A stretch of DNA of 64,000 nt. Origin: Lewinella sp. W8. Lineage in GTDB: Bacteria > Bacteroidota > Bacteroidia > Chitinophagales > Saprospiraceae. A program made the translations under genes and the position numbers. Shown here piece after piece: positions 1 to 12,754 of the stretch. The notes beneath the pieces were generated by a model. The model ran no database searches, was not told the DNA's origin, and worked only from the letters and a program-made list of their open reading frames with translations. Position 1 is the stretch's first letter, and each line of letters opens with the position of its first letter. Location: positions 310,001 to 374,000 of the forward strand of contig NZ_SNAQ03000002.1 of the NCBI RefSeq assembly GCF_004375085.3. Direction: 5' to 3'.

Positions 1-86
1 CGCCCTGCTCCCTCAAAACGGCACTTTACACCCAAAATCCATAAATCACTATTTACCAAAGAATTAGCAAAACATGACATATTTGG

Positions 87-117
87 CTTATGTGTAGCCT
101 TATGTTTCACCTTATGT
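87..117 (+). repeat. Three CTTATGT repeats with 12-bp period upstream of integrase
   Basis: The heptamer CTTATGT occurs at 87-93, 99-105 and 111-117, exactly 12 bp apart, 49 bp before the integrase start. GTTATGT at 8792-8798, near the other end of the element, shares six of the seven bases. Phased short direct repeats beside attP commonly bind the integrase arm domain or an excisionase; that role is an inference. They could equally be operator sites for the integrase promoter. Confidence 0.6.
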
Positions 118-165
118 AAATCGGGTACACTTACCACTAACTTAGAGGCAGCAAAAAGAAAAACC

Positions 166-1440
166 ATGCCGCCGCGCCCGAACTTTTATTTAGAACGCCC
201 GAAGCCAGGAAAGCCTACCGCAATATCGCTTCACTTCAATTGGAGCGGGGCGCAACTTCGGATGAGTACGAAGGAATATGTTTTACCTGAACATTGGGAT
301 AAGAAGACCCACCGGATAAAGGAAAAATTCACCGATATAAACCCTGACTACATCGAAGTAAACCGGGTGCTCGATGAACTGGCAATGTTTGTCACCAATA
401 CTTACAACAAGTTTCGCCGCGAACGGAAATTAGTTGAACTAACCCCCGAAGTATTGAAGCGGTACTTAGTTGCCTATCGGCAAGGCCGAACCGATGGACA
501 GCCAGCCGAACCTGTTTTGGATTACTACCGCCGATACATGGAAGACCGGCTAAGGAGTTCCTTAAAGGCAAGCACCACCGACAGCGAAATGGTTAGCCTA
601 AACCTTTTTGAACGTTTCGCCGCCACCCTACCGGGCGAACTCCATTTTGAGCAAGTAACGCTTCGCTTATTTGAACGTTACCGGGATTGGTTTTGGAACA
701 ATACAGATACCGGGGATTCGACTATCCACAAGCACCTAAAGCGATTCCGCCAAATGTGCTCCCATGCCGCCGCAAGCGGTCAGGATATGGGGTGCGACGT
801 GAACGCCATTAAATTAGCCTCGCAACTTCGTTTAAGCCCCGCAGCAAAGGAAACCATTGCACTATACACCGAAGAATTACAAGCCCTTCACCAGTTGGAT
901 TTATCCTCCAAGCCTCACTTAGAGAAGGTCCGGGACTTGTTTGTTTTTTTCTGTCACATCGGACTACGTTTCAACCGGTGGAAAGAAGTTGGCCCGGACA
1001 ATTTCACCGTGAAGGATGGAACGTATTACCTAGACATTTATACCCAAAAAGGAAAGGCAAAACGGGTCATCATTCCGTTGGATCCTATGGCCGTAGAGAT
1101 TGGTAAGAAGTACGGATTCAAGCCACCAAACATTACCGGCCAAGTATTCAACCGACAAATAAAAGAAGTTTGTCTTCTCGCTGGATTCACGGAGGAGATA
1201 CGGCAAGTGAAGCAGATTAAGGGCCGGTCGGAAATCTTATCTACTCCTAAATATCAATTGGTTAGCACTCACACGGCCCGCCGATCATTCGCAACGTCTG
1301 CCTATGAAGCGGGCCTTCCCGTCCGGGACATTATGGCCCTTACCGGCCACAGTCAGGAAAAAACGCTTATGCGATATATCCGGGAAGACCCCCGACGGAA
1401 CGCAGAGCGTATTGCAAAACATAACCGATTCAATAAATAA
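166..1440 (+). CDS. Tyrosine recombinase/integrase
   Basis: Site-specific recombinase of the Bacteroidota phage/transposon integrase type, expected to integrate and excise this element at the adjacent tRNA-Asp. The 424-residue protein has an arm-binding N-terminal domain (about 1-85), a SAM-like core-binding domain (about 115-205) and a catalytic domain (about 230-410). The catalytic set is visible: Arg268 in GLR, Lys295 in the beta hairpin, His369-x-x-Arg372, His395 in TGHS and the nucleophile Tyr404 in MRYIRE. Length and domain order are normal and it appears intact. The only feasible start is the ATG in AAAACCATGCCG. A 57-codon gene follows after 2 bp, suggesting co-transcription. Confidence 0.95.
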   Translation: MPPRPNFYLERPKPGKPTAISLHFNWSGAQLRMSTKEYVLPEHWDKKTHRIKEKFTDINPDYIEVNRVLDELAMFVTNTYNKFRRERKLVELTPEVLKRYLVAYRQGRTDGQPAEPVLDYYRRYMEDRLRSSLKASTTDSEMVSLNLFERFAATLPGELHFEQVTLRLFERYRDWFWNNTDTGDSTIHKHLKRFRQMCSHAAASGQDMGCDVNAIKLASQLRLSPAAKETIALYTEELQALHQLDLSSKPHLEKVRDLFVFFCHIGLRFNRWKEVGPDNFTVKDGTYYLDIYTQKGKAKRVIIPLDPMAVEIGKKYGFKPPNITGQVFNRQIKEVCLLAGFTEEIRQVKQIKGRSEILSTPKYQLVSTHTARRSFATSAYEAGLPVRDIMALTGHSQEKTLMRYIREDPRRNAERIAKHNRFNK

Positions 1441-1442
1441 CC

Positions 1443-1616
1443 ATGCCGACAGAAACCATATCCGAAGTGCTCGAAGCCTTCAACGCAGAAATGACGCCCA
1501 TCCCCACAGGCCCAATTACCGCAGAGGAAAAGCTCGCCCTACTCAAAGAAGACAGGCAGAAACTGCGCGCCCTGGTGGATAAGCTAAGCAAGCTAGTCAA
1601 GCAAGCGGAAGCCTAA
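1443..1616 (+). CDS. Small helical protein, 57 aa, downstream of integrase
   Basis: A 57-codon reading frame starts 2 bp after the integrase stop codon and ends just before a hairpin. The product has a proline-containing N-terminal half (MTPIPTGPIT) and a charged amphipathic C-terminal helix rich in Lys, Leu and Glu, of coiled-coil type. No family is recognised. Tight spacing after the integrase and the terminator-like structure directly behind it argue that it is the last gene of an int transcript, possibly a recombination directionality or accessory factor; that is only positional inference. Confidence 0.6.
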   Translation: MPTETISEVLEAFNAEMTPIPTGPITAEEKLALLKEDRQKLRALVDKLSKLVKQAEA

Positions 1617-1625
1617 AAACAAAAA

Positions 1626-1667
1626 ACCCCGCCGGTGCAAATGCCTGGAAGCTTCACCGAGCGGGGT
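1626..1667 (+). terminator. GC-rich stem-loop after the integrase unit
   Basis: ACCCCGCCGGTG pairs with CACCGAGCGGGGT (one bulged base) around a 17-nt loop, directly after the 57-aa gene. On the plus strand no U-run follows, but on the minus strand the stem is followed by TTTTTTGTTTTT, so it would work better as a minus-strand or bidirectional terminator. It separates the integrase unit from the next gene. Confidence 0.5.
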
Positions 1668-1695
1668 AATTCACTTAATGTAAATCTTAACAAAG

Positions 1696-3129
1696 ATGCG
1701 TCTTTTAAAATCAATCCCAAAGAATCGGGAGTTCTACAATGAGCACGGCCGCAACCTTAGAGCCTTTGCCCTTATCGCTAACATCGGTCAACTGCTTTCG
1801 GCCGCGTCCCTATCGCTGGCTGTTTATACCCTGCTTTCTGATGCCATAGCGGGCCGGGGATTAACCCTCGCAAGTACAATCATTGCCACCGCTGCCGTCC
1901 TGGTGGGGATCTTCATCGAACTGGCAAACCGTATGTTAGCCCGCCCAGCAATTCGCCCCGCCGTTGTCCGCAATCAGTTTGCAGACGACCCCGAGCAACG
2001 CAAGCGGCACCGACTACTCACAAGGTTCAGCCGTTTAGGTTTGGTAGTCGTTGGCTCCCTTTCCTTTGGTCTTTCCTATATGGGGAGCATGGACGCCGGG
2101 GAACTGATTACCGACCAACCGCCCGCCCCCGCCCTGGATAGCTTGGCCCTGGTGTTTCAAGCCGATACCGCCGCCCTGTTAGCCCCCTACCGGATACGCG
2201 CCCAGGCAGCGAACGAAGAATTTACCGCGACCGCCGCCGCAAAGGAAAAAGCCGCCCAGGATTACGCCGGATGCGCCGCCAGGGGGAACGGTTGGTGCAA
2301 GAAGAAACAACGGGCAATACTCGCAGAAATAGACGCCGCCCGCGCTGCCTATAACGCCACCTTAGCCACTATTGCCACCGAACGGGGAAAAGCATTAGCC
2401 CAGGCCATTAAAAGCCGTGACGCCGCCAACAATGAAGAACGGCAACGGGTGGCCGAGCTGACGATGGAAGCCGAAACCAAGAGTAAATCTAACGGGTACA
2501 TTTTCGCCGTTGTCACCGCTTCGGGGCAATTGGTTTTCTACCTGATGTTTTACCTGATCTTACAGATAACCGCCGGTAGCGAAATAGAGGAGGAGCTACA
2601 ACCAAATGAGTTCAATAATCTACCGTCCGTTACTGCCGACCTAAAGGCACTTATTAGCCACCGGGTAGAACGTGGAGCACGGCGATTGATAGCCCGGACC
2701 TTTGGGGAGCGTGACCGCCTGGAAGCCCCCCTACCCTACGTTAGCCTATACCAGGAGGAGGCCACCCCGCCGCCGGTTATCGCCAAGCGTGAACCAAGAT
2801 TTTACCAACGGTCCGAAGACCCGGCCACACACGAAACAACGGCCACCGCCCCGCGTGCCCTTTATAGCACACCAACCACACACGGCACACACGAACCACA
2901 CACGGCCACCGTACACACGAAAGCACCCTATATGAGTGCAGACCTACGGGAAGCAAAGCAACGGCTCAAACAGTACAAGAAGCGGCTGGGAGAGCACAAA
3001 CAGAAAGCCATAGCCCAGGAACGGAAGTACGGGGAAGTGAAGACCCGCACAGCCGATGCAATCACTAACAACCTGGAGAAGGTGGAGCAATGGAAGCAAC
3101 GGGTAAAAGCATTGAGCAATGAAGGGTAA
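1696..3129 (+). CDS. Four-TM protein with coiled-coil domain, unknown function
   Basis: A 477-residue membrane protein of no family that I recognise. Hydrophobic segments lie near residues 23-47, 58-76, 114-130 and 268-292. Between TM3 and TM4 is an Ala/Glu/Lys-rich helical region (about 150-265) with a short Cys-containing stretch (CAARGNGWCKKK). The C-terminal tail (about 295-477) contains a His/Thr-rich low-complexity stretch (residues about 375-412) encoded by CACACA-like DNA and ends in a basic coiled coil. It is the largest non-replication gene of the element and lies upstream of the capsid gene. A role in virion assembly, host envelope interaction or release is possible but not shown. 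A 27-codon gene overlaps its end, pointing to translational coupling. Confidence 0.75.
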   Translation: MRLLKSIPKNREFYNEHGRNLRAFALIANIGQLLSAASLSLAVYTLLSDAIAGRGLTLASTIIATAAVLVGIFIELANRMLARPAIRPAVVRNQFADDPEQRKRHRLLTRFSRLGLVVVGSLSFGLSYMGSMDAGELITDQPPAPALDSLALVFQADTAALLAPYRIRAQAANEEFTATAAAKEKAAQDYAGCAARGNGWCKKKQRAILAEIDAARAAYNATLATIATERGKALAQAIKSRDAANNEERQRVAELTMEAETKSKSNGYIFAVVTASGQLVFYLMFYLILQITAGSEIEEELQPNEFNNLPSVTADLKALISHRVERGARRLIARTFGERDRLEAPLPYVSLYQEEATPPPVIAKREPRFYQRSEDPATHETTATAPRALYSTPTTHGTHEPHTATVHTKAPYMSADLREAKQRLKQYKKRLGEHKQKAIAQERKYGEVKTRTADAITNNLEKVEQWKQRVKALSNEG

Positions 3130-3202
3130 GTTTTGGACCACCGCAGATAGTGTAGCCGTCCTGCTGCTGTTCGTTGTCCTGCTGCTGCTGCTGCATCAAT
3201 GA
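3119..3202 (+). CDS. 27-aa single-pass membrane microprotein
   Basis: ATG at 3119 lies inside the last codons of the 477-aa gene (the overlap ATGAAGGGTAA contains its stop in another frame) and opens a 27-codon frame ending TGA at 3200-3202. The product has a short basic N-terminus (MKGKFW), a few polar residues, then an almost uninterrupted run of Leu/Val (about residues 12-25) and ends HQ. The Leu run is encoded by CTGCTG repeats. The stop/start overlap suggests coupling to the membrane protein. Small hydrophobic peptides in phage-like elements can be holin-like, toxin-like or subunits of membrane complexes; nothing decides here. The CTG repeat could alternatively be simple low-complexity DNA. 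Confidence 0.5.
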   Translation: MKGKFWTTADSVAVLLLFVVLLLLLHQ

Positions 3203-3598
3203 CCGCCCGCCCATCTTCCTGGATAGTTTGGCAGGGACGTTAAATCCTAATGGGGTTAATCAGCATAGTGCAGGGTATAGTAATACTACACCCACTCGCG
3301 GAGCCACCTACACCACCGCCCGCCTAAAGAGAGATAACCCTTGCCCCATTAAGGTCTTTGGCGCTCTTTCAAATGTTTATCCACGACTCCACATCAATGA
3401 TATAAACGCGACTTTTTAGCTAAAAAAATTACAGATGAACTACCCACCCCGCCCGCCGCCAAGACCCCGAAAGGGCATTGTTTTCCGCAGCCACCTACGA
3501 TAATGTTTATCCGCGTCCAAACCACACGCAGACCGCTGATGAAAACCCGACCCCCCATAGCTAAAAAAGAGGGGGGGGGTACCTAAAAAAATGAGAAT
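3203..3598. other. Intergenic region with DnaA-box-like repeats, palindrome and G9 tract
   Basis: About 400 bp without a convincing gene. It holds two copies of AATGTTTATCCRCG (3372-3385, 3502-3515), which resemble the DnaA box TTATCCACA. It also has a perfect 14-bp palindrome TTTTTAGCTAAAAA (3413-3426), a second TAGCTAAAAAA at 3557-3567, and C6 at 3551-3556 that can pair with a run of nine G at 3571-3579, 19 bp before the next start codon. A plus-strand 81-codon frame (3174-3419) has no protein-like composition and is not called. Confidence 0.55.
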
Positions 3599-4180
3599 AT
3601 GAAACCAAGATTTTCCTTAAAGGACTTCCGGCAACTGGCAGAGCAGCTACAAACGGAACCGGATGTACCCCGCCTCCTGGACAACCTTGCGCTAACAAAG
3701 GAGGAGCTGGATTTACTGTACCTATTTACTGATAATTACCGTGAAGAAATATGGGGGCATGGGATGTGCTACGAAACGGAAGAAGCCTTACCCCATGTGC
3801 ACAGCGCAAGTGCTGTTTTGGCCCAGGTTTACGAATACAAGGAAGGTCATAAATACAGCGAGCGGGAGTACTACAATACGTGGACCTACGGGCATTATGC
3901 TATGTGGTATAAATACTTCCCAGATGACTTTAGTGGGATGACGATTGGAGAGGCCGGAAGAAAACTTGCAAAGGAATACGGCCATGACGAAAAGTGGGTT
4001 GCCAACTTTAGGAAAAGGGTGCCCAAGTATTCCACACCCAGCCAGCGGCAAAAGCACTCAAAAATCATTTACCAAATTCACTGGCGAGTGATTAGCCAGG
4101 GTATAGAAATTCCGACCGCTCTAAAAAATGATTTACACGCCCTTTGGAAGAAACATAAGAGAAAACGCACGGTACGATAG
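3599..4180 (+). CDS. Hypothetical protein, 193 aa
   Basis: No family recognised. The protein is soluble, acidic in its first half and strongly basic at the end (KKHKRKRTVR), rich in Tyr, Trp and His in the middle (residues about 50-115, e.g. YYNTWTYGHYAMWYKYF), and helical by composition. The basic tail suggests nucleic acid contact, but that is inference. Its start is 20 bp downstream of a nine-G homopolymer, so expression could be sensitive to slippage. It lies directly upstream of the RHH-like gene and the capsid gene and is probably in the same transcript. Confidence 0.65.
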   Translation: MKPRFSLKDFRQLAEQLQTEPDVPRLLDNLALTKEELDLLYLFTDNYREEIWGHGMCYETEEALPHVHSASAVLAQVYEYKEGHKYSEREYYNTWTYGHYAMWYKYFPDDFSGMTIGEAGRKLAKEYGHDEKWVANFRKRVPKYSTPSQRQKHSKIIYQIHWRVISQGIEIPTALKNDLHALWKKHKRKRTVR

Positions 4181-4232
4181 CAAATCGCATTGCGACAGCT
4201 CCCACCTTTGCAATGCAAGTAAATACAATCCA

Positions 4233-4631
4233 ATGCCTAAAGTAAATGCCGTTTTCAGAATGGATCCCCAGGACAAAGAATATGTCGAAGCGGAGGCCGC
4301 GTATCACAATATCACGCCTTCCACCTATCTGCGAATCCTAACAGCGTCTAGCGACCCGGATAAAGATTTAGTCGACCGTGTACGAACGCGCCACATCGTC
4401 AACGAACTAAACCGGATGGCCCTACCAACAGAGGGAGCACTTTCCGCAGTTAACGACGTGGAGCTGATGTATGCCATCGGAAAACTTTGTTCCTACACTT
4501 CCGCAATAATGACGTGCCGGTATTTGGGCCGAATTGCAGAAGCGAAAAAACTTGAACATGAACGCGCCGCCGTGGAATCCGATTTATACCGCCTGTTTGG
4601 GGCGGCCATGGAAGCGCAAAAGCATAACTAA
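4233..4631 (+). CDS. MobC/ribbon-helix-helix-like protein, 132 aa
   Basis: ATG at 4233 (MPKVNAVFRMDPQDKEYVEAEA) is preferred over an upstream in-frame ATG at 4128, which lies inside the preceding gene and would add 35 residues of unlikely sequence. The first 35 residues match the pattern of ribbon-helix-helix or MobC-type proteins: a beta strand (VNAVFRMD) followed by a helix with AAYHNITPSTYLRILT. The rest is helical with no recognised domain. Possible roles are relaxosome accessory factor, repressor of the element or origin-binding partner of the Rep protein. It sits 41 bp before the capsid gene. Family assignment is by pattern only. Confidence 0.6.
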   Translation: MPKVNAVFRMDPQDKEYVEAEAAYHNITPSTYLRILTASSDPDKDLVDRVRTRHIVNELNRMALPTEGALSAVNDVELMYAIGKLCSYTSAIMTCRYLGRIAEAKKLEHERAAVESDLYRLFGAAMEAQKHN

Positions 4632-4672
4632 CCCTATTAACAACAGCCTACGGGCTATAAAAACGAAACTAA

Positions 4673-5851
4673 ATGAGTGCAACTAAAATCCGAACGGAGA
4701 AAGAAATCAAAGAAGACCGTGCGGCCAAAGTAGCCGACCTGGAAGCCCTGGAAAACAAAGCCAGGGGAAGGGAAATGACTAACGAGGAGCAATTAAGGTT
4801 TAACCGCCTATTCACCGAAATCGAAGACTTAACCGGAGAATTGAAGCAGGGCCAACGTCGTAGACAGCTTTGGGCACAAGGGGCCGACCGTCAAGACGGA
4901 AGAACGCCCAACAGAGGCAGCCGTGTGGGGAGAAATTCCGCCCCCGCACTTCTTGGGGACATGGCTACTTCATTAGTAAGGGGTGAAATCAATCGCCGGG
5001 ACGGGTTAACCTTCAGCTCTAACAATCACATAATTGAAACGGACAACGTCCTAAGCAATATCGCTTACCAACTTTCCACCGAAAACCGTCTAACGGAACT
5101 AGGTGCAAGGTTGGAACCGATGGCAAACTATTCTGTGTTGCCCGTTGAGGAGCAACGAGCACAGGGGCAACATTGGACGTCCGGGGACCAAGTACAGGCC
5201 GATACCGCCATGGTAATGTCCGCCCGTGACATCGATCATAAGACCTTTGTTGCAATGGTCAAGGCTGATAAGAATTGGCTTATTGACGGTGGGGAACTTG
5301 CCCGCGACTACATTGGAACGTCTTTGGCCGCGACGATGAATGAGCAGTTAATTGCTTCGGTCCTTCACGGTAGCGCAGCAAACAAGCAGCCTGACGGGAT
5401 AGACAATACTGCCGGCATCCCCACGATTGACGCGGGTGGAGCAAGCGTAACCGACCACGGATTCCACCTGGACGCAGTTTCCGAGCTAATGTCGAAAAAC
5501 GTCCGCCGGGAAAATATCGGATACATCTACGGGAATAAAACCTTCCGACAAGTTGCTGGACTAACGGGGACTGATGGGCAGCCCCTGATGCCGCCCGCCG
5601 CCATTAGTGACCTTCGCCACTTCCACACGACAGCCGTGAAAGAAGACTACGGAGCCGGAAACGATCAAACCCGGATGTACTTCGGTGACTTCTCTAACCT
5701 TCTTGTTGCCCTTGGTGGCACGTTCCGTATGGAATTGGTGGAGAAATACGCAGATACCCTACAAACCGCCTTCCTGGTTTGGATGCGGTACGACATTCAA
5801 GTAATACGCCCTGACAACTTCGTAATTGTGGAGAACCTATCCACGACGTAA
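4673..5851 (+). CDS. HK97-fold phage major capsid protein
   Basis: Structural subunit of an icosahedral tailed-phage-type capsid (phage_capsid, HK97 family). The 392-residue length is typical. Residues about 8-65 form a charged coiled coil, the delta or scaffolding domain; a basic linker follows (about 60-90), then the HK97 fold from about 95 to 390, with recognisable P-domain text such as LARDYIGTSLAATMNEQLIASVLHG, an NKTFRQVAGLTGTDGQPL stretch and the terminal VWMRYDIQVIRPDNFVIVEN strand. No head protease, portal or terminase gene lies anywhere nearby, which is abnormal for a tailed phage: these genes are normally adjacent. A helper phage would have to supply them. Encapsulin is the main alternative for an isolated HK97-fold gene, but the N-terminal delta domain and the integrase/Rep context favour a capsid. 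Confidence 0.92.
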   Translation: MSATKIRTEKEIKEDRAAKVADLEALENKARGREMTNEEQLRFNRLFTEIEDLTGELKQGQRRRQLWAQGADRQDGRTPNRGSRVGRNSAPALLGDMATSLVRGEINRRDGLTFSSNNHIIETDNVLSNIAYQLSTENRLTELGARLEPMANYSVLPVEEQRAQGQHWTSGDQVQADTAMVMSARDIDHKTFVAMVKADKNWLIDGGELARDYIGTSLAATMNEQLIASVLHGSAANKQPDGIDNTAGIPTIDAGGASVTDHGFHLDAVSELMSKNVRRENIGYIYGNKTFRQVAGLTGTDGQPLMPPAAISDLRHFHTTAVKEDYGAGNDQTRMYFGDFSNLLVALGGTFRMELVEKYADTLQTAFLVWMRYDIQVIRPDNFVIVENLSTT

Positions 5852-5879
5852 AGACCTTTTTTCGATTCTCATTTAATAA

Positions 5880-6280
5880 GGGCCTGGACGGGGCGGGTTG
5901 GAAAGTCACCCGCCCCCGAAGGGATACCCACAAAGAAACTCCGAGCGGTGTCGGAATCAAGTTTACCCTTCTTGACCCGACGCGGCTCAGCCTATGGCAG
6001 AGCGGGGGCGGTAGCGTCTTCCTGGTTAGTACAGCCGCCCCCCTACCATAGAATTTAGCGGAACTGCTTTGGCCTAGACCGCGCATAAAAAGGGGATGCC
6101 GCCCGCAGGGTGGCAATAAAGAACTTGACTAGCTGGGGTTCACGAACGCCAATTCGCCCAGCTATCGAATAACTGCATTTTTCAACCGCCCTTGCGGGGC
6201 ATAAAAAAGCCCCGCCGTACGCCAATACGACAGGGCAAAATTCATTCATTATGTCTTGTGACATATCGAATAACTGTTAC
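5880..6280. other. Multi-hairpin region upstream of rep: candidate replication origin
   Basis: About 400 bp between capsid and rep genes with at least six inverted repeats. These are GGGGCGGGT/ACCCGCCCC (5890-5898/5908-5916); a nested pair CTATGG/CCATAG (5992-5997/6046-6051) enclosing GGGGGCGG/CCGCCCCC (6004-6011/6035-6042); GCCgCCC/GGGtGGC (6098-6114); AGCTGGG/CCCAGCT (6131-6137/6157-6163) with GTTC-AC-GAAC inside its loop; GCGGGGC/GCCCCGC (6194-6200/6209-6215); and ATGTC-TTGT-GACAT (6251-6264), which includes the rep start codon. The 13-mer TATCGAATAACTG is repeated at 6163-6175 and 6264-6276. Stem-loops with direct repeats next to a rolling-circle initiator gene are the usual layout of double- and single-strand origins. 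A 3' UTR or packaging signal is the alternative. Confidence 0.6.
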
Positions 6281-7948
6281 ACAAATTTACAGGAAAATAC
6301 CCGCCTTTCCAATTCTGACAAGAGTTCGCCCAGCACGACAACCCCCGATAAGTATAACGGGGGTTCCCATGCAGAGAAACCCGTTCAATTCATCGGGGTA
6401 GACAAATTTGTGGTGACCTTGCAGGGGGTAAAACTCCCCGATAATGTATCGGATACCTTTGGTGGCGCAATTTCCCTAACGAAGGATTTAACCCTATCCA
6501 CCGGGTACGAAGCCGCCAACGGTCGGAAGGTATTGGGGACTAGGTTCTACAAACTTGCTTTTACCATCCGGCACGGGACGGAGTACGAACCCGTGGCCCA
6601 TCTGCTGTATTTCAGCCGTGACGGGGCGGCCCGTAGTGAATTAACCATCCGAAACCATGTTCTGTATCGGAAAGGCTGGACAAATACGCTCACAGCCATT
6701 TTAAGAGCCCTTAATGCCCAAATCTACTGTTACACCGCCATAGACATTGCCGTAGACGGATACGGCCACCTGAATACCTTTTCCCGTGTATTCAAAGAAG
6801 ACAGCGTAAGGAACTACGGCCGGGGTACTATGACTGCTTACTTTGATAGCTCCGGTAAGAATTTGGCCGGGGTAGACTTGGGAGTAAAGACTGCTGACAA
6901 CCGAATAACGATTTACCGGAAGTCCGAAGACTACGAAAAAAAGCCGTATATCAAAGATGCGCACGAAGCCGCCGGGCTGGATACTTCGCAGCCGGTAGAC
7001 CGGACGGAAGGAAAATACCGCCGCAAATTTCTTGCCCGTATTGGCGGGATGGCAAGCGAAGACGACCGCGCAGCCCTAGAGGAGGCGTATGAGGGCATTA
7101 TTAAATCAAAGAAGGCCCGAACTAAAAAGAAGTACGCAGAAAGCAAGGCTATAAAGCAGGGCCGGGACAGGGAGATAAAGCAAGTCCGGGAAGATGCAAA
7201 GGCCGCCATTGCCCAGGTGGACTACCACAGCCCCGAGGCCGACGCGATTCGTAAGGACAGAGAGGACCGTATAGACGCGATACGGGCGAAGTATCGTAAA
7301 CGGCGCAACCTGCTGCAAAAAGAATTGAGAGAGATTAAGGAGGAGGTAGAAATGGGCATAGTTATGATTGACGATGCCAATAACGACCTGCTCACGAATG
7401 GCATATTTGATTACCGCCGCCTGGAAGATCCCGCCGTACTTGCGGACATTCACAAAAAGGGCGCGAACAGCCTGATAAAGCTCCGTAGACAGCGAAGCGA
7501 AAACGAAACCCGCCCCGACCAACAAGAATATATAAACATCATTGATTACGACGCCCTAAGAGCATTAGACATCAAACTAAAAAAGGTGGCGAAGGCTCCT
7601 AGCCCGGTGTGGGGAGTGCAGCGGAAAATATCGTTTGATATGCGCAATTCCTTTAGGGAATTGGATATGATGCAGGGGGAAACGGCGTTTTTGGAAGCCA
7701 TGCGCGAAAGCGCAGCCTTAGCCCGCAAGTTTGGTATTGCGGACTGGTTTTATAAGAGCCTGGATAAGTGGGAAAAGGATAAGGAATATCATTGGGCGAT
7801 AACGTCAGCAATGAAGTCCGCAGAGGAGCGGAAGGTCTATTCGGTGGCGCGTCTACCTGGATTTATCCCGCCCGATTACCGGATGCCATCAAAACCCGTT
7901 GACGTATCGCGGATAAATGATCTTTCCACAGCCATAAACGCCGCCTGA
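6251..7948 (+). CDS. Rep_trans-like rolling-circle replication initiator
   Basis: Likely nicks a double-strand origin through a tyrosine and starts rolling-circle replication of the excised element. Signature segments match the Rep_trans/replication initiation factor family: YTAIDIAVDG (about 162-170) as the acidic metal-binding motif, RITIYRKSEDYEKKPYI (about 218-234) carrying the candidate nucleophile tyrosines, and DRTEGKYRRKFLARI (about 250-264), equivalent to the family's arginine/glutamate strand. The 565 residues are much longer than typical members. A charged coiled-coil region (about 275-370) and a C-terminal domain are added. The annotated ATG is the only upstream start and overlaps a small stem-loop. 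The next gene overlaps by one base (TGATG), implying coupling. Which tyrosine is catalytic cannot be decided by eye. Confidence 0.75.
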   Translation: MSCDISNNCYTNLQENTRLSNSDKSSPSTTTPDKYNGGSHAEKPVQFIGVDKFVVTLQGVKLPDNVSDTFGGAISLTKDLTLSTGYEAANGRKVLGTRFYKLAFTIRHGTEYEPVAHLLYFSRDGAARSELTIRNHVLYRKGWTNTLTAILRALNAQIYCYTAIDIAVDGYGHLNTFSRVFKEDSVRNYGRGTMTAYFDSSGKNLAGVDLGVKTADNRITIYRKSEDYEKKPYIKDAHEAAGLDTSQPVDRTEGKYRRKFLARIGGMASEDDRAALEEAYEGIIKSKKARTKKKYAESKAIKQGRDREIKQVREDAKAAIAQVDYHSPEADAIRKDREDRIDAIRAKYRKRRNLLQKELREIKEEVEMGIVMIDDANNDLLTNGIFDYRRLEDPAVLADIHKKGANSLIKLRRQRSENETRPDQQEYINIIDYDALRALDIKLKKVAKAPSPVWGVQRKISFDMRNSFRELDMMQGETAFLEAMRESAALARKFGIADWFYKSLDKWEKDKEYHWAITSAMKSAEERKVYSVARLPGFIPPDYRMPSKPVDVSRINDLSTAINAA

Positions 7949-8475
7949 TGAAGTTCACCGACCTACCCACCACCAAGCGGGGCGACGTTGGGGAACGTAT
8001 CGTCTACGACCATTTACGGGCCAAGGGATGCCACATCTACGAACCCGAAGACGGCCCCCACCCTATTGACCGGTTTATGGTTGCCCGTGATGGCCAATGC
8101 TTCGCTTTTGATGTGAAGACATACCGCCGTCAATTCACCCGCCCGTACACTGGAATAGATGCCCCCGACTTTGAGAAATACACTTCTTTGCGGGGTGTTA
8201 CGGTCCTGCTGTTTTTCGTGGATGCTTTTGAACGGTGTATCTACTGGATAAAGATTAACCCGGAAGGCCACCGCGCCCCATCTGATGAACCGGCCACCGG
8301 TAACGGACTGATATACGAACATCGGAAGGTGTACTTCCCCCTATCCGATATGACGGTCTTACGCGCCCTTACTGATGAAGAACTAAGGGAGCTTGGCCCC
8401 CAGGACCGCCCCGAGCGGTACGAATACACCCGCCCCTATTTCCTGACCGATAAAGCCCAGGCCGATGCTAACTAA
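7948..8475 (+). CDS. PD-(D/E)XK-type nuclease, 175 aa
   Basis: A small protein with a complete PD-(D/E)XK signature: Glu16 in the first helix (GDVGERIVYDHL), Asp41 in HPIDRF and Asp55-Val-Lys57 in FAFDVKTYR, with the usual strand spacing. Such small stand-alone folds occur in Holliday-junction resolvases, replication nucleases and DNA-processing enzymes of mobile elements. Coupled to rep by a TGATG overlap and itself overlapping the next gene by 11 bp, it likely acts in replication or resolution of the element's DNA, possibly creating packaging ends in the absence of a terminase; the last idea is speculation. Confidence 0.75.
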   Translation: MKFTDLPTTKRGDVGERIVYDHLRAKGCHIYEPEDGPHPIDRFMVARDGQCFAFDVKTYRRQFTRPYTGIDAPDFEKYTSLRGVTVLLFFVDAFERCIYWIKINPEGHRAPSDEPATGNGLIYEHRKVYFPLSDMTVLRALTDEELRELGPQDRPERYEYTRPYFLTDKAQADAN

Positions 8476-8764
8476 TACCGTCACGACGATCACAGTAAGC
8501 CCGGAGGAGTTACTCGATGCCCTGGAAGAAAGATTGCAGGATAAACGCTCCCAAGCCTTCGGACCCATTCTAAAGCGGTTGCAGTTTGTCACCGTCGACC
8601 AGGTGGCCACAATGGCCCAGGTAAGCCCGCAGACGGTCCGAAACTGGACAAAAGAGGGAATTTTAACCGAGGCCCGGAAGGGATGCAAAGAGCGGTATCT
8701 ACTTTCCCGGGTGCTCGATTTTATTGCGGCAAGGGATGACCGGAAGCACAAGCACTCTAAATGA
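8465..8764 (+). CDS. MerR-like/HTH_17 DNA-binding protein, excisionase-like
   Basis: The 99-residue protein has an N-terminal helix (PEELLDALEERLQDK, about 13-27) and a winged helix of the MerR/HTH_17 type at about 41-80 (FVTVDQVATMAQVSPQTVRNWTKEGIL followed by RYLLSRVLDFI), ending in a basic tail. This architecture is standard for Bacteroidota excisionases and element regulators. It is the last gene of the element, next to the presumed attR, so in the circular form it would be immediately upstream of the integrase; that supports a recombination directionality role. A transcriptional regulator of rep is the alternative. Confidence 0.75.
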   Translation: MLTNTVTTITVSPEELLDALEERLQDKRSQAFGPILKRLQFVTVDQVATMAQVSPQTVRNWTKEGILTEARKGCKERYLLSRVLDFIAARDDRKHKHSK

Positions 8765-8818
8765 CATTAAAATGACAAAGCGAGGGCAAAGGTTATGTAC
8801 GGCACCCCTTAAACGCAC

Positions 8819-8845
8819 AAAAGCCCCTGAAAATCAGGGGCTTAG
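8819..8845 (-). terminator. Terminator of tRNA-Asp
   Basis: On the minus strand AAGCCCCTGA pairs perfectly with TCAGGGGCTT around a 3-nt loop and is followed by TTTTG, two bases downstream of the tRNA 3' end. This is a good intrinsic terminator for the tRNA. Confidence 0.8.
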
Positions 8846-8847
8846 TG

Positions 8848-8921
8848 CGGTCTGGACGGGACTCGAACCCGCGACCTCCGGCGTGACAGGCCGGCATTCT
8901 AACCAACTGAACTACCAGACC
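8848..8921 (-). tRNA. tRNA-Asp (GTC)
   Basis: The minus strand gives a complete cloverleaf: acceptor stem GGTCTGG/CCAGACC with discriminator G, D-arm with GTTCAGTTGGTTAGAA, anticodon loop CTGTCAC with anticodon GTC, and T-arm GCGGGTTCGAGTCCCGT. The CCA end is not encoded. It lies at the right edge of the capsid-carrying element and is its probable attachment site. Confidence 0.95.
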
Positions 8922-9119
8922 AGTAGTCTTCGCTATTCAAGAATTTTACTGCGTTTCAGTAAGTGTTTTCTCAAATGCTGCGCAAATATAGGGTCATCGA
9001 ATCACTCCCTGCAAGCATTCCGGCAAGAAAACCGATACTTTTTTTGCGTGCTTTCGCTAGGTCATTGAAAACCAAGCAAAAGCACGCAGAAAAAGTTTTG
9101 TCATCAGGTAGGGGCCAGA

Positions 9120-11636
9120 CTAGCGCGTCAGCACAATCCGTTTGGTGTAGAGCTGGCCTCGGGCCCGGAGGCGAACGAAGTACATCCCGGCCGCGGCACG
9201 GCCGCCGGCCGCATCCGTAGCGTCCCAGCGCCAAGAATACGTCCGGTCACCGTTGGGGTTGACCCTGGCCGACTGCACCACCCGGCCACTCACGTCCAGC
9301 ACGTCAATGCCCACCTCATCCATGAAGGGCAGCTCGAAATTGATCGTTACCGCCTCGCGGAAGGGGTTCGGGATGGCCACTACGTTAGCAAAGTCCGAAG
9401 GATCCTGCTCCGTGACGCTGGTGGGGAAACAGCTCGGTGGAACAATGACGTTGATCTGCTGGGTGCAGGTCGCCGTCAGACCGGAGGCATCGGTAGCCGT
9501 CCAGGTGAGCTCGGTGGTTTCCTTAAAGATGGTATCCCCCACCAGGGAAGACAGCCCGTTGGCGCTGAGCAGCGTCACGCCCTCACAGTTGTCCGCCGCA
9601 ATGGGGTCAAAGTCCGTATTGGAAATGACCACAAAATCGCAGCTGAAAGTCGAGTCCAATTTGACGGTCACCTCGGGACAGTCGAGGGTTGGTGCCGTCA
9701 CGTCGTTGACCGTCACGTCAAACGTACAGGTGGAGCTTTTGCCCGTTTCGTCGGTTGCCGTGGCGGTGACGGTAGTGACGCCGACGGGGAAGTTCGTTCC
9801 ACTATCCTGTGAGTAGGTAATGGTCACTGTGCTCGAACAATCATCCGTGGCCGTGGCCGTGAACTCGGCCGTCGCCATACAATCGGCACCCACGTCGACG
9901 GAAATGGGCTCGGGGCAGGCGATCACCGGCGCGGCTTCGTCCTGACAAACCACCGTGCCGGCGGAGAAGGAGACGTTGTCAATGAATATCCGCTCACTTC
10001 CCGCATCCAAGTCCGCCTGAATAGTTAACCGGATGGGATCATCGTAGGATTCGGTGATGGTATAGGTAACCGTGGTCCACTGCCCAATGGTTAAGTCCGG
10101 AAAACCTCCACTGCCATCCGCAGCAGCATCAAAAATTTCTTCCAGAAGGCCGAAAGACTCATTCAAAATTACTGCGGTAAATCTATCCGTTCCGGTTGAG
10201 GAACTTTCGTAGGAGGTAGATCGTATAAAGTAATCAAAACTTACCGTCACCCCGGAAAGGCCAGCAATATCAATGGGGGCGAAAACTGCGGAGACGAGTC
10301 CATCCGTATCTTCAAACACAAATCCCTTTTCGCCATCCGTGAAGGCGGCATCGGGATCATCCGTCACCCCCAGGGCATCGCCGTCCGTCAGTCCGGCCTC
10401 TCCACTAGTACCAAGCCTTGTCGGCGCAAAGGCCGTGATAAAACCGAGTTCCTTACCTCTGCCACCCGTGGTCACGGTAGGCTGCCCCTGGTTGTTTTCT
10501 AAAAAACGAAAGATTACTGGGTTCCCCGTATCTACGTAATCTTCCTGTGAAGCCAGGGCATCCTCGAAGCTGGTGCTGGGGGGGGCATTGGGCTCACAGT
10601 CACCGTCGTCAATGGTCAGGGCAAGTGCCGTCAGGTCCATGCTGGAGGCACAGCCTCCTTCGCCGCGTACGTAGTAGGTAGTGCCGAGTTCAGCGCCCCC
10701 AAAAAAGTCGTACTGGTCGGAAGAAGTCCGGGCTACTTCCTGGGTACCTTCGGCGTCGGAGTAGATCACCCATTCGGTGGCGTTCCCCAGGCTTCCGGAG
10801 ATTTCCATCCGGAAGGGAACACCGGGACATACTGTTGCCGGTGATTGCCCCAGGGCAGCGAGGGACGGCTCCGTGCACTCGGGCCAGTCGGCCTCTACCA
10901 CGCCCGTGGAAAAGATAATATTATCGATGGCCATCTCCTCCGCACTGGCGTTGGTATCAAACTCGATCACCAGCTGGACGGTCGCCCCCGCCAGGCCGGA
11001 AAGGTCAGCCGTCAGGGTCGTCCAGACTTCGGTGGTAGGGATGGCCTCGTTGATGGCGGAAAACAGCATGGTGCGGTCACCGGTAGCGGTATTTATCAGA
11101 TAAATTTCGATGCGATCATCGGCACCGTCGCCGTTTTCGTAGCTGGTATTGGCGACGATGTAGGACATGGAAAACATCGTGCTTCCGTCCACTACGACGG
11201 GATTAAACCGCAGGGTCGCCAGACCGTCGGGGTCCTGGAGCACGTAGATATTGTTGTTTCCGCTGGGGGGAGGGTTCGCGGCAATGTCAATGGTCAGACT
11301 GCCCATGTCGTTATCCGGAGTCGGCGCTACGGTGTAGTCAACGACGCCGAAAAGCTCTCCGTCGGTCAGACCACCTCCCGCGTCACGATCCCGCGTGGGC
11401 GTGTAGGTTACCTGGTAACCGGGAATTGCCCCCATGGTGGCCGCGTTGGGTTGCGTCTGGGGTGCCATGGTGGCGGGGAGAATGTGTTCGGTGAAGGGGG
11501 AAAGTGGATCCACGTAGTGGTGGGAACCGGGGGTACTGGTGCTGAAGTCCTGGGTGACCTGCGCCGACAGCCCCCCAAAGGCGAGGACGACGAAGAATAG
11601 CCCGGACAATAATCGAAGTGAGTGCAAATAATTCAA
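9120..11636 (-). CDS. Secreted HYR-domain protein with type A T9SS sorting domain
   Basis: An 838-residue exported protein. A signal peptide (about 1-25, ending GGLSAQ) is followed by two stretches resembling jelly-roll/MAM-like beta domains (about 110-245 and 400-560, each with FDN(N)(I/V)xFSxG-type ends). Then come HYR-type Ig-like repeats (about 565-660 and 660-750; APVIACPEPISVDVGADC, TATDDCSSTVTITYS, TATDETGKSSTC). The C-terminus (about 755-838; AIPNPFREAVTINFELP to GMYFVRLRARGQLYTKRIVLTR) is a type A T9SS sorting domain, so the protein should cross the outer membrane and be surface-attached or released. The ligand is unknown. The gene stands alone with 260 bp of upstream DNA. Confidence 0.9.
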   Translation of the reverse strand: MNYLHSLRLLSGLFFVVLAFGGLSAQVTQDFSTSTPGSHHYVDPLSPFTEHILPATMAPQTQPNAATMGAIPGYQVTYTPTRDRDAGGGLTDGELFGVVDYTVAPTPDNDMGSLTIDIAANPPPSGNNNIYVLQDPDGLATLRFNPVVVDGSTMFSMSYIVANTSYENGDGADDRIEIYLINTATGDRTMLFSAINEAIPTTEVWTTLTADLSGLAGATVQLVIEFDTNASAEEMAIDNIIFSTGVVEADWPECTEPSLAALGQSPATVCPGVPFRMEISGSLGNATEWVIYSDAEGTQEVARTSSDQYDFFGGAELGTTYYVRGEGGCASSMDLTALALTIDDGDCEPNAPPSTSFEDALASQEDYVDTGNPVIFRFLENNQGQPTVTTGGRGKELGFITAFAPTRLGTSGEAGLTDGDALGVTDDPDAAFTDGEKGFVFEDTDGLVSAVFAPIDIAGLSGVTVSFDYFIRSTSYESSSTGTDRFTAVILNESFGLLEEIFDAAADGSGGFPDLTIGQWTTVTYTITESYDDPIRLTIQADLDAGSERIFIDNVSFSAGTVVCQDEAAPVIACPEPISVDVGADCMATAEFTATATDDCSSTVTITYSQDSGTNFPVGVTTVTATATDETGKSSTCTFDVTVNDVTAPTLDCPEVTVKLDSTFSCDFVVISNTDFDPIAADNCEGVTLLSANGLSSLVGDTIFKETTELTWTATDASGLTATCTQQINVIVPPSCFPTSVTEQDPSDFANVVAIPNPFREAVTINFELPFMDEVGIDVLDVSGRVVQSARVNPNGDRTYSWRWDATDAAGGRAAAGMYFVRLRARGQLYTKRIVLTR

Positions 11637-11896: not shown

Positions 11897-12754
11897 CTAC
11901 TCCAGGGCAAACTTGACGGGCAGGTTAAACCGCACCCGCACGGGTAGCCCCGCCTGAATACCCGGCTTGAAGCGCTCCCCTTCCCGGCTAATGGCCTCGA
12001 CGGCTTTTTGCGCCGCCTCGGAACAGCCACCACCAACTTTACGCACCACTTTTACGTCGCTGATGCTGCCGTCCTTTTCTACGGTGAACTGTACCACCAC
12101 CGTACCCTGAATGTTGTTCTCCCGGGCCAGGGTCGGGTACTTCACCCGGCTTTGCACGAAGGAAAGCAGCGCCCGGTCGGAACATTGCTTCGCCTCTTCT
12201 CCCGACAGCCCGAAACATTCACTGCCGAAGACGGGCATCCGCTCCACAAAAAGCAGGGGCTCGGAAGACTCCTCCACGGGGGGAGGTGGCGGCGGTGGAG
12301 GTGGTGCAGGCGTGGGTTCGGCAATTTGCGGCGGGGGAGCCAACACCGGCTCCTGGTCGTCAATACCCTGATCGATGAAATCAACGGTTTCCACCTCAGG
12401 TTCGGGGGTGGCTTCAATCACCGGGGGTGGCGGCGGCGGGGGTGGCGGGGGTGGTTTGTGATCGGTCGGTGGAATGTCCACTTCAATAATGTCTTCGGTG
12501 TCCATGACCAGATCGTAGACGTGGGGGCCCGATTCGGGCTGAGTCCAGTTGATGGTCAGGAAGGTGGCCAGGATGGCCACGCAGAGGGACAGTCGGTGCA
12601 GAGGAGCCCGGTAACTAAAAACACTGGCGGCCTTCCCCTTGACGGACTGCGGCGCCCGCAGGCGCCGTAAGAGCAGGATGACGAGCAGCACCAACAGGCA
12701 CAAGCCCCCCAGCCCCAGCAGCACCGTGGTGCCGCTGAACGTATAAATCAGCAT
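11897..12754 (-). CDS. TonB-like energy transducer
   Basis: Couples the inner-membrane proton gradient to outer-membrane TonB-dependent receptors. The 285-residue protein has two N-terminal hydrophobic segments (about 5-28 and 50-68) instead of the usual one. Two polyproline rods follow (about 97-111 and 145-154) with acidic spacers, and then a TonB C-terminal domain (about 195-285; VKYPTLARENNIQGTVVVQFTVEKDGSISDVKVVRKVGGGCSEAAQKAVEAI). Residues 1-30 with the basic loop LLLRRLRAP resemble a truncated BlaR-like membrane segment. No ExbB/ExbD is nearby. It lies between two T9SS substrate genes in the same direction but with gaps of over 160 bp. Confidence 0.9.
   Translation of the reverse strand: MLIYTFSGTTVLLGLGGLCLLVLLVILLLRRLRAPQSVKGKAASVFSYRAPLHRLSLCVAILATFLTINWTQPESGPHVYDLVMDTEDIIEVDIPPTDHKPPPPPPPPPPPVIEATPEPEVETVDFIDQGIDDQEPVLAPPPQIAEPTPAPPPPPPPPPVEESSEPLLFVERMPVFGSECFGLSGEEAKQCSDRALLSFVQSRVKYPTLARENNIQGTVVVQFTVEKDGSISDVKVVRKVGGGCSEAAQKAVEAISREGERFKPGIQAGLPVRVRFNLPVKFALE

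Follow-up and report, generated by a model that had tools for sequence, protein, structure and literature searches.

We analysed a 64,000-nucleotide stretch of the Lewinella sp. W8 genome (the window; C22:310001-374000 of an assembly of 6.18 Mb in 91 contigs), the left part of which holds an integrated element that carries an HK97-type major capsid gene together with a gene for a Rep_trans-like rolling-circle initiator (Rep). We determined the gene content and boundaries of this element, the recurrence of its gene set, the family of its capsid and the family likeness of its Rep. The reading we favour, with a probability of about 0.52, is a phage-satellite-like integrative element that would build its own HK97-type shell and replicate as a rolling circle while obtaining portal, large terminase, maturation protease and tail from a helper. 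A first-pass annotation of the same DNA had listed the integrase, capsid, Rep, nuclease-like and helix-turn-helix (HTH) genes on one strand beside tRNA-Asp, and all of these were confirmed using open reading frames (ORFs), profiles and ARAGORN. The ORF list placed every named gene of the element (166-8764) on the forward strand (Table 1). The left attachment (att) end, a membrane protein gene, ORF4 and a NikA-like gene had not been in that list.

The element is 8,879 bp long between its direct repeats and its left end lies outside the window at -33, where negative coordinates are bases left of window position 1. The 15-bp att core is the last 15 bases of tRNA-Asp and is repeated exactly at -33 to -19. 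The GC content was 0.512 in the element and 0.575 in window 9001-64000. An Rfam scan of 1-9000 detected only the tRNA, plus a sub-threshold CcsR1 match (0.11) taken as chance. A further 14-bp att copy was found farther left at -10085, and this outer copy with the bases to its left (about 50 bases) matched the bases adjoining tRNA-Asp at 84-86% in five of the 11 congener loci compared (L105, L106, L107, L108 and L112). The same congener stretch also matched window 8810-8860. In the congener G002 (L108) a 78% match to the window left flank (-13466 to -12846) sits about 0.56 kb from tRNA-Asp. As these two landmarks are 21.7 kb apart in the window genome, the locus fits two tandem insertions at tRNA-Asp, one being the element and the other an adjacent insertion of about 10.05 kb, neither of which appears to be present in G002. 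The comparison is strong but not complete empty-site evidence, as the match does not cover every intervening base. The products of the tandem neighbour (-10085 to -34; L002 4915-14966) include a 2065-aa protein of FG-GAP/RHS/TcdB-mid/SpvB-like type and one of 850 aa that has no Pfam family; no integrase was recognised by eye among its ORFs.

The capsid gene had been described as full-length and of the HK97 type, which was borne out by matches to PF05065 (9.7e-21) and TIGR01554 (9.7e-24, residues 10-387 on model positions 2-384 of 385). A profile built from five capsids matched HK97 gp5 (3qpr, 3.5e-8) and other phage and gene transfer agent capsids in the PDB. None of the 37 PDB sequences listed for this profile was named as an encapsulin and there was no encapsulin among the Pfam matches; most PDB matches with E > 0.1 looked like coiled-coil or other chance matches. 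The AlphaFold model of the capsid was weak (mean pLDDT 52.5, 5 sequences) with helices at 9-30 and 37-74, and this helical N-terminal stretch fits a putative delta domain. A fold search with the model gave 113 matches at E <= 0.001, the best 50 of which mixed phage capsids and encapsulins. The sequence profiles therefore place the capsid with the tailed-phage type, as had been proposed, but the weak model alone matches both kinds and does not separate them. The capsid was a full-length open frame in five elements at only 23-34% identity to each other, suggesting selection for function.

A capsid search matched four of 148 genomes including the source genome, the others being G015 (Neolewinella aurantiaca SSH13, a congener; locus L007), G039 (a Phaeodactylibacter metagenome-assembled genome (MAG); L008) and G056 (a Saprospiraceae MAG from ALOHA; L009). 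Searching genome contigs with the capsid profile returned the same three named genomes, and over 298 genomes of the host family the profile matched eight, with full-length capsids in G000, G039, G056 and G288 (L100) and weak matches in G061 and G917. Truncated relatives were seen at G851:C323:3947-4432 (182-aa frame) and G887:C25:84723-85088 (123-aa frame), perhaps from decaying elements. The expected second genome with the same gene order was found in N. aurantiaca: L007 has the full set of eight main genes, arranged as in the window, but at tRNA-Arg with a 17-bp repeat and not at tRNA-Asp. Identities between the window and L007 were 39% for the integrase, 61% for the membrane protein, 25% for ORF4, 24% for the NikA-like protein, 30% for the capsid, 43% for Rep, 51% for the nuclease-like protein and 30% for the HTH protein. 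Compared to L008, the membrane protein was 26% and the capsid 33% identical. Capsid identity was thus about equal in the two comparisons (33% and 30%) while membrane protein identity differed (26% and 61%), so capsid similarity does not appear to track the rest of the element, a pattern that fits module exchange.

The three sister elements with a related capsid (L008, L009 and L100) have an AAA_25 gene in place of Rep. A P27 small terminase was detected in L009 (1.1e-14) and L100 (9.8e-8) and an S78 prohead protease in L009 (1.8e-43). The capsid elements therefore grade from no recognised packaging genes (window, L007 and L008) through small terminase (L100) to protease plus small terminase (L009), and judging from gene content an element with only a capsid marks one extreme among the five. 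The proposal of a capsid-only minimal satellite held in that the element is complete and integrative and combines a capsid with a Rep_trans-like gene, but the capsid behaves as a variable module and sisters keep a small terminase (two) or protease (one). Two of the sister loci were complex. L100 777-12748 is a tandem with three att copies (tRNA-Lys, 3815-3836 and 12732-12748), one part of which is an 8.9-kb capsid element while in the tRNA-side part a DNA-cytosine methyltransferase and a Vsr-like protein were apparent by eye rather than by HMM. L009 is a 9,523-bp contig with a 390-bp repeat (92.6%) at 401-785 and 9136-9523, 8.7 kb apart, that holds small-terminase coding at both ends, as might arise from related satellites lying in tandem or from a circular assembly of mixed origin.

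The wider family was surveyed using the membrane protein, whose profile matched 61 of the 298 host-family genomes at E <= 0.001 (strong and weak matches together, up to five per genome) and only the source genome among 395 phylum-wide genomes. This uncharacterised protein marks a common integrative-element group with many replication modules. We compared 45 loci, 39 of them fetched by the membrane protein and L100 by the capsid, plus the window, L007, L008, L009 and L017; some end at contig ends and only part of their proteins were profile-scanned. One integrase cluster was present in 29 of the 45. The Rep_trans-like cluster occurred in seven and an AAA_25-type cluster in five, L009 having another AAA_25 protein, and VapE-like, DUF5906, DUF3987 and Rep_1 types were seen among the proteins scanned. 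By these comparisons the capsid is best described as a part that can be swapped within a wider group of elements, the marker of which is the membrane protein. ARAGORN detected tRNAs in 18 loci, and 12 of these had a repeat of at least 15 bases between the tRNA 3' end and the integrase side, against a chance expectation of about 0.02 over the whole test by our own estimate. The 12 bounded elements were about 7.4-12.7 kb long (L095 was excluded, its repeat being a second tRNA copy). A capsid-free example from the same genus, L064 8359-16655 (G002), carries the membrane protein, a Rep_trans-like Rep and an S49/ClpP-like peptidase with no capsid match, and its 226-aa protein clusters with proteins of L061-L063, L077 and L084.

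The window Rep has no Rep_trans Pfam match itself, and its assignment comes from relatives and a structure model. When six homologues were scanned PF02486 was matched by L018 (1e-9, the sole one above cut-off), L020 (1.5e-5), L064 (4e-4) and L081 (0.02) and not by L017 or L090. Residues D169, G211, Y222, K224, R251 and E253 were invariant across the six Rep relatives aligned, giving a pattern of a Tyr (Y222), a Lys two residues on (K224) and acidic residues D169/E253. One of the three acidic positions, that of motif N', could not be placed. A catalytic Tyr followed two positions later by Lys, together with metal-binding acidic residues, is described for RepD and RelSt3 in PMC4797284 and PMC6499999. 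Foldseek returned two matches at E <= 0.001 for the Rep model (pLDDT 68.7), and each is a rolling-circle initiator from Staphylococcus (RepDE 4cwc, 4.7e-5; 4cwe, 1.2e-4). The label of Rep_trans-like initiator was thus upheld by the RepDE fold, the Tyr and Lys and the relatives with PF02486, but not by a match of its own or by the RepD Arg189 position, which is not kept. We take the protein to be a divergent Rep_trans-type protein with a predicted rolling-circle role. Rep_trans-like proteins were also seen in other settings in three genomes of the host order (L018 8932-10185, L020 9165-10613 and L019 6585-9518); in L020 a lysozyme-like ORF (by eye) lies near the gene, and the locus could belong to a small prophage of a different type.

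The 399 nt that precede rep were strongly structured, as 0 of 100 shuffles folded as low, for RNA and DNA alike. The equivalent gaps gave folding z scores of -7.54 in L007 and -3.59 in L064, and the stretch 5' of the ribbon-helix-helix (RHH) gene in L008 gave -1.38, although that stretch, part of it taken up by an 81-aa ORF, does not count as a matched control. A covariance model built from L064 and L007 and run over the 794,880 bases of the 45 loci detected the window gap (0.0042), the L017 gap (0.031) and a partial reverse-strand L007 match (0.39). In the first hairpin 11 of 13 pairs had two-sided pairing-preserving changes over four rows, in an alignment fitted to the structure. A pattern devised after the alignment had been seen (hairpin loop GTTT-N4-8-TTC then CTC) matched 14 times in the same bases; six matches sit 290-324 nt 5' of a rep start (window, L007, L017, L064, L081 and L085) and the other eight were scattered. 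The hairpin was therefore present in six of the seven Rep_trans-like elements, L090 being the one without. Over 398 genomes of the host family the RNA model found only its two training elements, under stricter filters that missed the window too. Its conserved loop, variable but paired stem and fixed distance from a rolling-circle rep make the hairpin a candidate nick hairpin and origin, and the alternative is a leader RNA for rep.

The claim that portal, terminase and protease genes are missing was supported at each scale searched. Pfam and PHROGs detected no portal, large terminase, P27 small terminase or S78 protease among the element proteins. The source genome, searched with one family per function, had a single PF05065 match and no PF04860 (portal), PF03354 (large terminase), PF04586 (S78 protease) or PF05119 (P27). 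No head gene was recognised by eye in ORFs of at least 90 aa in the 15 kb left of window base 1, where finding them would have counted against the capsid-only proposal. Of the three findings named as able to refute that proposal, two (head genes to the left and the want of a second genome) thus failed to appear, and the third, an encapsulin-like structure, is countered by the sequence profiles but not by the fold model. Profile controls for portal, terminase and protease matched in three or four of 14 known genomes. With one portal and one large-terminase family searched, PF04860 and PF03354 were found in none of six genomes (G000, G015, G002, G039, G056 and G288), in which S78 occurred only in the G056 element and P27 only in the G056 and G288 elements, plus one sub-cut-off G056 match. 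The suggested helper prophage with a matching portal and protease was not recovered from these genomes with these families. Among INPHARED phages the capsid had relatives at 20-29% identity in the best 20 of 33 records (best E 1e-4, Marinobacter phage AS1), and Rep, the L009 capsid and the L009 membrane protein had no match. A plasmid search with the capsid returned 93 Piscirickettsia records, with 26% identity over 55% of the capsid in the eight listed.

Together these data suggest a satellite life cycle. The integrase would insert the element in tRNA-Asp via the 15-bp core and later allow its excision. On the excised circle Rep would nick the hairpin origin about 290 nt 5' of its own gene and copy the circle by rolling-circle replication. 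The element would make its own HK97-type shell, presumably sized for about 9 kb, and because the genes for packaging and tail are missing from the element we propose that portal, large terminase, maturation protease and tail would be supplied by a co-infecting helper phage. We favour this reading because of the bounds at tRNA 3' ends, the flank spacing in G002, the recurrence of eight genes at another tRNA, the intact but divergent capsids, P27 and S78 in sister elements, the Rep fold with part of the catalytic motif, the absence of PF04860 and PF03354 from the six genomes and the lengths of about 7.4-12.7 kb of the 12 bounded loci. By its genes the element has the make-up of a phage satellite, namely att-site integration, its own integrase and replication gene and no full particle set, and mobilisation by a helper phage would complete the functional definition.

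Several results weigh against this reading. The RepD Arg189 position is Thr in the window, L007, L081 and L090, Lys in L017 and Arg only in L064. Changing Arg189 strongly lowers RepD activity in the portion of PMC4797284 available, and its lack of conservation lowers our confidence. A six-member Rep profile matched RepDE-type PDB chains at only 0.27-0.82 (4cwc 0.27), with ribosomal proteins at 0.28. The capsid occurs in only five of the 45 loci, which were chosen by membrane protein or capsid. We saw no sign of a helper phage, of a circular form, of virion reads or of expression. Searches of IMG/VR (2.9 million contigs), which reach only fairly close relatives, returned none by capsid (single sequence and profile), Rep or membrane protein, and this would be odd for anything that is often packaged.

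The capsid could instead act as a weapon or size-setter that co-assembles with, resizes or poisons the helper head, the element riding mostly in a helper-made particle. We consider this unlikely though worth serious attention. Satellites commonly remodel hijacked capsids according to the available text of PMC10945586 and PMC12409344. Only the shell subunit is retained here, protease and portal not being found by the families tried, and the sister L064 has an S49 peptidase with no capsid match. To our knowledge, however, the remodellers described so far work through scaffolds or small proteins and do not involve a complete major capsid gene. The window capsid also possesses a delta-like helical region of its own (in a weak model), and in L009 the capsid gene occurs with genes for a protease and a small terminase, an arrangement that argues for a full shell in that element. 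Quite unlikely is an integrative mobilisable element in which Rep would be a MOBT-type relaxase aided by the NikA-like protein, with conjugative transfer and the capsid as a passenger. MOBT relaxases and Rep_trans initiators share motifs as distant kin in the part of PMC6499999 available, and the NikA-like match is weak (0.0031, below cut-off). The same text gives RelSt3-type MOBT an N-terminal HTH and PF02486, whereas the window Rep has no HTH match and its first 42 residues have pLDDT < 50. Five divergent elements, moreover, retain an intact capsid.

We also gave a slim chance to a capsid-only element that packages rolling-circle DNA in its own HK97-type shell without a tailed-phage terminase or portal, the membrane protein aiding release, which would represent a minimal virus-like, module-shuffling lineage. 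About as improbable is a particle that lacks a tail or resembles a vesicle, whose formation needs no tailed-phage helper and in which the membrane protein acts in exit or coating. Among the eight genes the one for this protein shows the highest conservation between the window and L007, and it is the family marker, but no packaging ATPase was found in the element by Pfam or PHROGs, and capsid-less elements keep the membrane protein (in loci chosen by that protein), so that its role is not tied to the capsid. A decayed prophage that lost its other head genes is very improbable; capsid fragments do occur in two host-family genomes, but the compact gene set and order are repeated in another species at another tRNA, and the att ends, eight open genes and sister elements of similar size are not those expected of decay.

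The remaining genes of the satellite-like element were less readily assigned. The membrane protein has hydrophobic segments at 25-43, 56-74 and 271-297 by hydropathy and no credible Pfam, PHROGs, NCBIfam or PADLOC family. The L008 protein in the NikA-like position matches RHH_1 at 4.5e-5. The nuclease-like protein, annotated as PD-(D/E)XK, kept E16, D41, (D/E)55 and K57 in six of six aligned relatives, and its gene adjoins rep in all six elements that carry it, but it had no family match above chance. The HTH protein, thought to be excisionase-like, matched HTH_17, but PHROGs gave DNA binding (1.8e-7), terminase small subunit (3.4e-7) and excisionase (5e-6) on the one HTH, so that a regulator, an excisionase and a small-terminase-like protein cannot be told apart by these profiles. 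It was the only one of eight proteins matched by PADLOC (mad1, 4.2e-8; a type II methyltransferase model, 9e-4), and we rejected a defence-gene identity, taking these matches as generic HTH.

Table 1. Features of the element and its insertion site (window coordinates)
Feature	Position	Strand	Basis
Integrated element, within-window part	1..8845	+	direct-repeat bounds and lengths; left end at window -33 (L002 14967)
Tyrosine integrase, 424 aa	166..1440	+	PF13102 4.5e-10, PF00589 1.5e-8, PF17293
Small ORF, 57 aa	1443..1616	+	55-aa ORF at matching place in L007; no Pfam match
Membrane protein, 477 aa, element-family marker	1696..3129	+	profile search, hydropathy
ORF4, 193 aa, function not assigned	3599..4180	+	25% identical homologue in L007
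NikA-like/RHH DNA-binding protein, directly 5' of capsid	4233..4631	+	PF21983 0.0031, below cut-off; start codon assumed at 4233
HK97-type major capsid protein, 392 aa, helical N-terminal (delta-like) region	4673..5851	+	PF05065, TIGR01554
Structured non-coding gap between capsid and rep	5852..6250	+	folding z -3.64 (RNA), -3.29 (DNA)
Conserved covarying hairpin, loop GTTT..TTC; candidate double-strand origin (Rep nick hairpin) or rep leader	5940..5992	+	covariance model, pattern search
Rep_trans-like rolling-circle initiator (predicted), 565 aa	6251..7948	+	PF02486 matches of relatives, conserved residues, fold match
PD-(D/E)XK-like protein, 175 aa	7948..8475	+	conserved residues; adjoins rep
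HTH (MerR/HTH_17) protein, 99 aa	8465..8764	+	HTH_17 1.7e-7
attR core TGCGGTCTGGACGGG, 3' end of tRNA-Asp	8846..8860	.	exact attL copy at window -33..-19
tRNA-Asp(gtc), integration target	8847..8921	-	ARAGORN; Rfam RF00005 1.2e-14

If the satellite reading is true, a satellite may own just one shell gene and borrow its motor and tail parts. The graded series of capsid elements, in a family that integrates at tRNAs and swaps replication modules, would make the order in which packaging parts were gained or lost testable, and the membrane protein marker makes such elements easy to find in the host Bacteroidota family. The family appears to exchange shell and replication parts and may spread by borrowing the remainder from real phages.

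In the open-licence literature no paper contained both 'Saprospiraceae' and 'phage satellite', and the search results listed included no satellite report for the host family. The terms 'rolling-circle', 'phage satellite' and 'major capsid protein' occurred together only in the Charybdis preprint (PMC12324425), whose element, as far as its available text describes it, is a different one and was rejected as a match. The window element has the initiator fold and part of the catalytic motif in common with pT181-type Rep_trans replicons and MOBT elements, although RepD Arg189 is not kept. We know of no pT181-type plasmid or MOBT integrative conjugative element that carries a capsid. VEIME and Tycheposon-type elements are small integrative elements with integrase and replication genes. 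The likeness to them is by description only, and L009 comes from a MAG labelled ALOHA; both are proposed marine satellite families in the available part of PMC11389934. PICMI of the Vibrionaceae is a small marine satellite too, said in the text available to lack capsid-remodelling genes. The Streptomyces phage satellites MulchRoom and MiniFlayer also have their own shell genes, and in the part of PMC10690885 available they carry terminase, portal, capsid and scaffold with no obvious replicases. The window element is the reverse, with its own initiator and no terminase or portal found. Capsid-forming PICIs (cf-PICIs) are likewise integrated satellites with their own HK97-type capsid, and the capsid of the cf-PICI EcCI2 (9gyi) was matched by the capsid profile (2.8e-6, profile positions 6-93 only) and by the weak model (6.1e-7). 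cf-PICIs encode capsid, protease, portal, connectors, both terminase subunits and an HNH protein (PMC10690885, as far as available), and the window element has the capsid alone of that set plus a Rep_trans-like initiator. Within the portions of the literature available cf-PICIs are the nearest kind, but because they are described with a whole head and packaging set we do not class the window element as a cf-PICI.

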